Part shown: positions 6,202 to 54,654 of the stretch, piece after piece
Layout: each line of letters begins with the position of its first letter
Numbering within the stretch: the first letter of the stretch is position 1
Assembly: GCA_003574885.1 (NCBI GenBank)
Contig: PJFC01000008.1
Span: 62,001 to 126,000 of the forward strand
DNA: 64,000 nucleotides
Direction of reading: 5' to 3'
DNA from: Geobacter sp.
GTDB taxonomy: Bacteria; Desulfobacterota; Desulfuromonadia; Geobacterales; Geobacteraceae
Position numbers and translations under genes: made by a program
Notes under the pieces: generated by a model
Told to the model about the DNA's origin: nothing
The model's database searches: none
Seen by the model: the letters and a program-made list of their open reading frames with translations, nothing else

Positions 6202-6822
6202 ATGCCTATCCGTCTGATCGTCTCTTTCTTCTGCCTGCTCCTCCTCATTCCCCACGAAGGCCATGCCGCTGCCAAGCCGCGCCCGTTCGCGGGGAACGGC
6301 ATCCTGCTGATTCGCCCTCCTTCGGTGACCGATTCAGCGGAGCCCCCCACAATAACCCTCTACCGGGAACCGGGGGTCGGCCGGCTGGCGGAACTGCCAC
6401 CACAAAAGCTCCCCGGCTTGAGCCAGGTGCTTAAAACGGAGCATGAAGAAACGGCGGTGGCGGTCCTGGGAAAAAGAGGGACATGGCTGCGCATCGCCTA
6501 TGATGAAGCGGGGAGGGAGGGATGGGTTCAACTCCGGCGGCACTGGCGTTACGCCGACTGGGAAACCTTCCTGAAAGGGCGGGTGGTGCGGCTTTTTGCC
6601 GGCATGAAAAAGGATGTGTACTCCTTCCGGCGGGAACCGGCATCCTCCTCACCCGTGCAACAGAGGCTTTCGGCCTCCCGCAGCCTCCGGGTCATCCGGT
6701 TGCAGGAAGAATGGGCACTGGCAATGATCGACCTGTCCGCCGCCGGCTGGATTCGCTGGCGTGACGGCGACGGCCGTTTCCTTATCGTCATCGGCGAGAC
6801 ATTCGACCCACAAAAACATTGA
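6202..6822 (+). CDS. SH3-like domain exported protein
   Basis: Signal peptide; SH3b-like segment GTWLRIAYDEAGREGWVQLRR. Confidence 0.6.
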   Translation: MPIRLIVSFFCLLLLIPHEGHAAAKPRPFAGNGILLIRPPSVTDSAEPPTITLYREPGVGRLAELPPQKLPGLSQVLKTEHEETAVAVLGKRGTWLRIAYDEAGREGWVQLRRHWRYADWETFLKGRVVRLFAGMKKDVYSFRREPASSSPVQQRLSASRSLRVIRLQEEWALAMIDLSAAGWIRWRDGDGRFLIVIGETFDPQKH

Positions 6823-6854
6823 CTTAGCCCCAAGCCTGTGCTATTCGAAACAGC

Positions 6855-6947
6855 ATGAACGGGATCGCACTCAACATGGCAGCAGCACCTGCACGAGCTA
6901 TCAGCGCCGCGGCGTCTTTCGCCGCAGGTCTGCCCGCCGCCATGTAA
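6855..6947 (+). CDS. candidate alanine-rich leader peptide (MNGIALNMAAAPARAISAAASFAAGLPAAM)
   Basis: 30-aa ORF with 13 Ala, between SH3 gene and aminotransferase, followed by an intrinsic terminator at 6975-7008. Confidence 0.5.
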   Translation: MNGIALNMAAAPARAISAAASFAAGLPAAM

Positions 6948-6974
6948 GCACTCCCCGCTTATTCTCTACCTAAT

Positions 6975-7008
6975 GGCCGTGGGCATCCCCCACGGCCTTT
7001 CTGTTTTT
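6975..7008 (+). terminator. intrinsic terminator/attenuator upstream of aminotransferase
   Basis: GGCCGTGGG-catcc-CCCACGGCC stem followed by TTTCTGTTTTT. Confidence 0.8.
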
Positions 7009-7054
7009 GGGAACACGGAACCATCCACTATTAACACAGCATCAGGGAGGCATC

Positions 7055-8359
7055 ATGCGAAGCGACATTGTCAGCCACGGCGCGGGCGAACTGACCTACG
7101 AGATACGGAACATCGTCAACGTGGCGGAGAAGCTCCAGAAGCACGGCGTGAAGATCAACTGGGAAAATATCGGTGACCCCATCGTCAAGGGAGAGATGAT
7201 CCCGGACTGGATGAAGGAGATCGTGGCCCGCGAGGCGATGCACAACGATTCCTGGGGATACTGCCACACCCGCGGCGTGCTGGAGACCCGGGAGTTCATC
7301 TGCGAAGTAACGAACCGCCGCGGCGGAGCCAGGATCACCCCGGACGACATCATCTTCTTCAACGGACTGGGTGACGCCATCGCCAAGGTGTACGGCTGCC
7401 TCCGTCCCGAAACCCGTGTGCTCCTCCCCTCCCCCACCTATACCACCCACTCCCTCGGCGAGGCAGCCCACGCCCATGCGGCGCCGGTCTGCTACCGGCT
7501 CGACCCTGAGAACAACTGGTATCCCGACCTGGAGGACCTGCGCAACCACGTGAAGTACAATCCCCAGATCGCCGGCATCATGATCATCAACCCGGACAAT
7601 CCGACCGGCATGGTCTATCCCGTTGAGACCCTGCGGGAAATTGTCGCCATTGCGAAGGAGTACGATCTCTTCATCATCTCCGACGAGGTCTACAACAATA
7701 TCGTCTATAACGGCGAGCAGACCGTTCCCATCTCCGACGTGATCGGCGACGTGCCGGCCATCGCCATGAAGGGGATCTCCAAGGAGTTTCCGTGGCCCGG
7801 TTCACGGTGCGGGTGGATCGAAGTCTACAACTACGGCAAGGACGAACGTTTCGGGAAGTACATCAATGCCATCCTCAGCTCCAAGATGAACGAGGTCTGC
7901 TCCACCACTCTCCCCCAGAGGGCACTCCCGGCGATCATGCAGCACCCCCGGTACGCCTCCTACCTGGCGGAGCGGGTGGCAAGCTATGAGAAGGCGAGCA
8001 ACATCACCTATAACTTCCTGAAAGAGGTGCCGGGGCTCATGGTCAACCGGACCAACGGCGCCTTCTACATGGCGGTCGCCTTCAAGGAGGGGCTCCTCAA
8101 CCACCGACAGAGTCTCCCTATATCCAACCCCGAGGTGAAGGAACTGGTGGAAGGGCTCGTCAACGCCCCCGGCGTATCGCCCGACAAGCGTTTCGTCTAC
8201 TACATCCTGGCCCACACCGGCATCTGCATCGTCCCCCTCTCGTCTTTCAACTCCTCCCTGCAGGGGTTCCGGGTCACCCTCCTGGAAAAGGACGAAGAGG
8301 AGTGCAAACGGATATACCGGACCCTGGCGGAAAAAATCGGCGCCTACCTCAATTCCTGA
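7055..8359 (+). CDS. pyridoxal phosphate-dependent aminotransferase (alanine/aspartate aminotransferase type)
   Basis: Class I/II aminotransferase motifs NPDNPTGMVYP, SDEVYNNIVY, GISKEFPWPGSRCGW; ATG at 7055. Confidence 0.9.
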   Translation: MRSDIVSHGAGELTYEIRNIVNVAEKLQKHGVKINWENIGDPIVKGEMIPDWMKEIVAREAMHNDSWGYCHTRGVLETREFICEVTNRRGGARITPDDIIFFNGLGDAIAKVYGCLRPETRVLLPSPTYTTHSLGEAAHAHAAPVCYRLDPENNWYPDLEDLRNHVKYNPQIAGIMIINPDNPTGMVYPVETLREIVAIAKEYDLFIISDEVYNNIVYNGEQTVPISDVIGDVPAIAMKGISKEFPWPGSRCGWIEVYNYGKDERFGKYINAILSSKMNEVCSTTLPQRALPAIMQHPRYASYLAERVASYEKASNITYNFLKEVPGLMVNRTNGAFYMAVAFKEGLLNHRQSLPISNPEVKELVEGLVNAPGVSPDKRFVYYILAHTGICIVPLSSFNSSLQGFRVTLLEKDEEECKRIYRTLAEKIGAYLNS

Positions 8360-54413: not shown

Positions 54414-54474
54414 CGGCCGGGGTGGTGAAAATTTTTTCTTGACAGATGAGGAATGAATGGGCAAAGATGACGCC

Positions 54475-54558
54475 ATGGTAACCACGAGCTTCTCCTATTT
54501 CAGCTTTTACTTTTGGTACGGCTTTTATTTTAAGTCGTCTGCCCAGGTAGGGGTTTGA
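54475..54558 (+). CDS. candidate aromatic-rich leader peptide (MVTTSFSYFSFYFWYGFYFKSSAQVGV)
   Basis: 27-aa ORF; 11 of residues 6-19 are Phe/Tyr/Trp; followed by intrinsic terminator and DAHP synthase. Confidence 0.8.
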   Translation: MVTTSFSYFSFYFWYGFYFKSSAQVGV

Positions 54559-54591
54559 TGTAGGGAAGCAGCACAACACTAATCAAACCGA

Positions 54592-54630
54592 AAGCCGAGG
54601 GTGGACGAATCCATCCCCGGCTTTTTCTTT
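54592..54630 (+). terminator. attenuator terminator upstream of DAHP synthase
   Basis: AAGCCGAGGGTGGA-cgaa-TCCATCCCCGGCTTTTTCTTTTT. Confidence 0.82.
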
Positions 54631-54654
54631 TTCCAGATAGTGGAACAGTATCGA

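Follow-up and report, generated by a model that had tools for sequence, protein, structure and literature searches.

Leader-peptide attenuators of Proteobacteria, such as trpL, hisL, leuL, pheL, thrL and ilvL, have in common a leader ORF rich in cognate codons, a 1:2/2:3/3:4 logic of RNA pairing and a downstream gene concerned with the same amino acid. To our knowledge, alanine was long absent from the amino acids sensed by attenuators of this kind. The only report of an alanine leader-peptide attenuator that we found in the literature concerns alaL, which stands before alaS in Streptomyces lividans TK24, encodes MNVIGRNIFATARATSSPVAAA (6 Ala in 22 residues), is reported to be an alanine-dependent attenuator and, when described in 2021, was presented as a previously unseen type (PMC8079986). 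Actinobacteria also have leaderless leader peptides (leuL, trpL, ilvL; PMC8079986), in which the ORF lies at the 5′ end of the transcript, and in the uORF motifs cysS uORFC-8-2 (PMC8632094) and ilvB-II (PMC11109978) a conserved uORF with cognate codons is joined to an antiterminator–terminator pair. The main texts of the latter two papers name no uORF for alanine, though one survey included a Geobacter genome, and the main text of a survey of premature terminators (PMC2965389) mentions neither alanine nor Geobacter. Nor did a search of openly readable papers turn up any account of an alanine attenuator in Proteobacteria, Geobacter included.

The leader analysed here lies in a 64-kb stretch of a Geobacter-like genome (hereafter, the window). 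It shares with alaL an Ala-containing leader peptide and, on our reading, alanine-dependent attenuation; however, alaL precedes a tRNA synthetase gene in another phylum and has been described in one genome, whereas the window leader precedes an aminotransferase gene. Compared with attenuators of the trpL/hisL type, the amino acid is alanine, the target is a single aminotransferase gene and the leader ORF, in the order to which the window belongs, has no Shine-Dalgarno sequence and is predicted to have no 5′ UTR. The leaderless peptides of Actinobacteria serve other amino acids, whereas here one attenuator occurs in Shine-Dalgarno-led and, by prediction, leaderless forms, and the cysS and ilvB-II motifs use Cys or branched-chain codons in place of Ala. 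The proposed mechanism, classical ribosome-mediated attenuation, is known; what is new is alanine as the signal for a biosynthetic gene, the target gene, conservation across a bacterial class and the coexistence of the two initiation forms. An earlier note on this DNA had suggested that an alanine attenuator could be undescribed, which stands for a biosynthetic gene, where we found none, but not for alanine as such, given alaL.

All elements of the leader are on the forward strand, and the promoter, mini-ORF, terminator and aminotransferase gene stand where the earlier note had placed them. The promoter (6819–6847) pairs a −35 element, TTGACT (6819–6824), with a −10 hexamer, TATTCG (6842–6847), across a 17-nt spacer as that note described; in addition, the −10 is of the extended type, with TGC preceding the hexamer (TGC-TATTCG, 6839–6847). 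The ATG of the leader ORF, at 6855, lies 7 nt past the −10 box, and transcription would start at about this ATG. The ORF (6855–6947, stop codon 6945–6947) encodes MNGIALNMAAAPARAISAAASFAAGLPAAM*, with 13 Ala among 30 codons; it has no Shine-Dalgarno sequence and is predicted to be of the leaderless type. Its stop codon is followed after 27 nt by the stem of an intrinsic terminator, 3:4 (6975–7008, GGCCGTGGG / CCCACGGCC and a T-rich tail), in which a 9-bp stem (6975–6983/6989–6997) is followed by TTTCTGTTTTT up to 7008. Downstream come the ribosome-binding site AGGGAGG (7044–7050) and the gene for a class I/II PLP aminotransferase, PRK06855 (7055–8359), probably a glutamate-pyruvate (alanine) aminotransferase. 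A search of both strands of the window for ATG ORFs of 15–45 codons that contain 30% Ala or more and stand before a strong terminator gave this one ORF only, and 15 windows simulated with matching local composition gave none, so the arrangement is not due to chance. The window holds other RNA elements. Upstream of a gene for DAHP synthase (3-deoxy-7-phosphoheptulonate synthase) that starts at about 54715, a mini-ORF rich in Phe and Tyr (MVTTSFSYFSFYFWYGFYFKSSAQVGV) stands before a hairpin that resembles a terminator and has a T-run (54473–54650); this is the aromatic attenuator to which the earlier note had referred. An atoC RNA (RF01733, 48934–49026) and a cobalamin riboswitch (RF00174, 44922–45102), both on the reverse strand, score well above gathering.

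The leader RNA can adopt alternative folds. An antiterminator, 2:3 (6931–6985), pairs TGCCCGCCGCCAT (6931–6943) with ATGGCCGTGGGCA (6973–6985) in 12 of 13 positions, and a hairpin 1:2 (6874–6945), in which strand 1 (6874–6892) pairs with strand 2 (6920–6945), competes with it. At minimum free energy the full leader forms this long hairpin within the ORF together with the terminator (z −3.26), whereas an RNA ending at 6985 folds as the antiterminator instead; antiterminator and terminator are mutually exclusive folds. In a stall model, a ribosome was set on every codon in turn, and the masked stretch of about 13 nt began with the A-site codon's first base. With the ribosome stalled at codons 11–22, among which are the core Ala codons, the minimum-energy fold was the antiterminator; with the ribosome at codon 23 or any later position to the stop, stalled before codon 11, or absent, it was the terminator. 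Our main reading, to which we give a probability of roughly nine in ten, is ribosome-mediated attenuation of transcription, in which the leader would respond to the level of charged tRNA-Ala and so set the expression of an alanine-type aminotransferase. The earlier note had proposed attenuation without describing this antiterminator, which adds support to it. The sequence itself shows the ORF, the promoter, the two folds with their joint evolution, the preference for Ala and the tie to a single gene; from these we infer the transcription start, translation in vivo, termination and the response to Ala-tRNA.

Under this mechanism, transcription would begin on the leader ATG or immediately beside it, and RNA polymerase would be followed through the Ala-rich ORF by a ribosome. 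With ample Ala-tRNA it would reach the stop codon and cover strand 2 (6931–6943), so that strand 3 (6973–6985) would join the terminator and transcription would end near 7005. When Ala-tRNA is scarce, the ribosome would stall at the Ala cluster (codons 11–20) and strand 2 would be left unpaired while the terminator is still incomplete; the free strand 2 would capture strand 3 to form the antiterminator, allowing the aminotransferase to be transcribed and alanine to be restored. If the leader were not translated, hairpin 1:2 would form and the terminator would win.

Comparison with close orthologs (proteins 74–100% identical) located a leader in which an Ala-rich mini-ORF goes together with antiterminator and terminator in 65 of 94 distinct upstream regions, 62 by peptide motif and three by promoter and terminator; one further region, L017, has the terminator and is too short for the leader to be judged. 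In all 47 leaders of the ARAI class, the promoter has TTGAC, a spacing of 17–18 nt and the extended −10 TGnTA, and the first ATG to occur 5 nt or more past the −10 sits 6–9 nt away in frame with the Ala core, for which chance would give one third. For the order of the window this geometry predicts a leaderless ORF, with its ATG 6–9 nt behind the extended −10. Between ATG and core, a variable stretch, the reading frame contains no stop in 531 codons, against 73 in 484 in frame 1 and 5 in 484 in frame 2. Since the N-terminal nucleotides are poorly conserved, the open frame argues for translation and not for RNA structure alone. Translation of the ORF, without which the earlier note would have given up its reading, is supported by these 47 in-frame leaders and by the ribosome-binding sites found outside the order.

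These data bear on the simplest alternative, that the terminator ends the upstream gene (6202–6822), that the aminotransferase has a promoter further down and that the mini-ORF is a chance product. The upstream gene does end at 6822, shortly before the element, but the promoter and ORF conserved in 47/47 lie between that gene and the terminator, and the chance expectation of such an Ala ORF is about zero. No promoter-like site was found at 7008–7055, between terminator and aminotransferase, and in most relatives just 22–60 nt separate the terminator from the start codon (22–24 nt in L010, L042, L076, L079 and L080), which leaves no conserved room for one. We regard this alternative, which the earlier note had itself raised, as scarcely credible, and it is already contradicted by the comparative data.

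To follow the attenuator further, a covariance model built from the 47 ARAI leaders was run at E ≤ 0.01 against 277 genomes from the class to which the window belongs; 195 of them gave matches, the weak ones including false positives. The window's own genome has one strong match. A second match there (G000:C13:123089-123219, E 0.003) has neither an Ala mini-ORF nor an aminotransferase, and a match in another genome (G037:C42, 4.7e-5) has no leader of the Ala type; lacking an Ala leader, both were treated as terminator-like false matches. No such Ala leader was seen in the region before the genome's own alaS. We retrieved 58 matching leaders, nearly all from other orders of the class, and almost all of these leaders from other families and orders show the same set of Ala-rich mini-ORF, antiterminator and terminator, with very different peptides (for example MIKTAAAAARAIQAAGSSLITVRHP, MFKATNITAAIKAARANNAAAAAAACHELVHCLEN and MFSLKGYTMAAAAAAAAKAAAAGCRTHARILAR). 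Conservation of the mini-ORF, on which the earlier note had let its reading depend, extends from the 65 close leaders to many families and orders. Unlike the ORFs inside the order, which are predicted to be leaderless, most leader ORFs outside it have a Shine-Dalgarno sequence. Eighteen of the 19 retrieved leaders with long flanks precede the same aminotransferase, the other (L154) running off its contig. Each leader with a checkable gene stands before this one gene. About 13 upstream regions of orthologs in other classes of the phylum were inspected, and no such leader was seen in them.

We think it likely that an alanine attenuator controls a biosynthetic aminotransferase throughout the class, as the first for alanine biosynthesis. 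Its leader ORF would be initiated by Shine-Dalgarno sequences in most other families of the class, and in the order of the window it would be leaderless, with the transcription start at the ATG, so that the transcript and the leader peptide would share their start base. If true, this adds an attenuator conserved over the whole bacterial class that includes Geobacter. It would also provide a natural set of leaders in which a single attenuator is initiated either with a Shine-Dalgarno sequence or leaderless, and with which the timing between transcription and the translation coupled to it could be tested.

The divergence of these leaders also weighs on a second alternative, in which the leader is a ligand-binding riboswitch or a protein-binding leader and the mini-ORF is a by-product of a GC-rich conserved RNA, with GCN read as Ala. 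Inside the order the nucleotides of the core GCACGAGCTATCAGCGCMGCGGCG are indeed very conserved, with the Arg codon CGA in 47/47 ARAI leaders, although seven genes of the window use CGA rarely (for 11 of their 173 Arg codons). Against this, the ORF stays open and in frame across the variable, unaligned 5′ part, and other families keep Ala runs on quite different nucleotides, mostly with a Shine-Dalgarno sequence. Moreover, L239, L243 and L246 lose the CGA core and keep Ala, and the CGA codon is therefore not essential. Close relatives too have two further sequence types, one in Geomonas and others (...VHAAAAARPF) and one in L044 (...HELAAAAAT), in which the Ala run is encoded by other RNA sequences. 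No Rfam family matches the leader: none of the covariance models, T-box included, reached gathering or passed an E-value threshold, and the best, Pseudomon-Rho, scored 17.3 bits where gathering is set at 45. We consider an RNA receptor of this kind very improbable. The CGA-GCT codons (window 6894–6899; alignment A1 columns 13–18) are almost invariant inside the order, and the small hairpin that the full-leader fold suggests around CGAGCT is not kept as a fixed structure in relatives, as judged by eye from the alignment.

Conservation of the peptide suggests a third alternative, a nascent-peptide arrest leader (A-R-A-x-x-A-A-A) that senses an antibiotic or another metabolite and not the charging of Ala-tRNA. 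In the order, no other part of the peptide is as well conserved as the ARA/RAISAAA core. However, peptides across the class have little in common beyond their Ala content, and the downstream gene encodes an aminotransferase near AlaA and no resistance gene, which leaves peptide arrest with only a slim chance of being correct. Two leaders, L007 and L090, separate the constraints on RNA and peptide, since a 1-nt deletion after ARAISAAA shifts the frame and strand 2 of the RNA is kept while the peptide is not; because of this shift past the core they have only 6 and 4 Ala, respectively, which weighs against the alanine reading. The antiterminator of L090 is unusually perfect (TACCCACGGCC with GGCCGTGGGTA).

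In the full-length minimum free energy structures, a stall favours the antiterminator in only 35 of 99 leaders; the others need kinetic (co-transcriptional) folding, and nascent-RNA folding was thus applied as a second criterion. That the switch depends on the order of folding is accepted for classical attenuators. In the nascent-RNA model, a ribosome stalled in the ORF exposes the antiterminator in 99/99 leaders, and a ribosome at the stop codon leaves it possible in 11/99. The control codons are therefore placed, in this model, such that a stall frees strand 2 and a ribosome at the stop codon usually blocks it, and Ala makes up 37% of the permissive codons against 19% elsewhere. Overall, Ala accounts for 34% of leader residues in the order and 31% in the rest of the class, with the next residue at most 9% (99 leaders), compared with 10% in the genes of the window.

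The antiterminator pairing is present in every leader examined and its strands have evolved together. Across 43 non-redundant leaders, the pairing of strand 2 with its own strand 3 averages −18.3 kcal/mol, versus −15.7 kcal/mol with strand 3 of other species (z = −6.8; 0 of 20,000 permutations). Within the order alone the co-adaptation is weaker, with p 0.005 for all 45 leaders and about 0.12 after redundancy is thinned, which counts against our reading; compensatory changes among G-C, A-U and G-U pairs are seen in the antiterminator there.

The aminotransferase of the window matches PRK06855 (NF005334) at 768.7 bits against a cut-off of 443, and among solved structures it comes closest to 1xi9, whose deposited name is putative transaminase, and to 4cvq, the E. 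coli glutamate-pyruvate aminotransferase AlaA. Homology suggests that it is likely to have an alanine aminotransferase role. In a scan of eight other aminotransferase-fold proteins of the genome, which ranked above four weaker hits, none matched a family named as alanine aminotransferase and two matched unnamed aminotransferase families. The same genome also encodes an alanine dehydrogenase, which we count against the alanine attenuator reading. If that reading is true, alanine supply becomes a function for a large family of unassigned aminotransferases (PRK06855). About 27 of the close orthologs (including L014, L015, L019, L021, L023, L025, L026, L028, L030 and L041) lack promoter, leader and terminator together, a further point against that reading, and these may be transcribed by read-through from the upstream gene. 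Several genomes have two copies of the aminotransferase, among them DBMM01 (L014, L083) and VFJW01 (L015, L049), and the two copies in one genome are possibly regulated differently.
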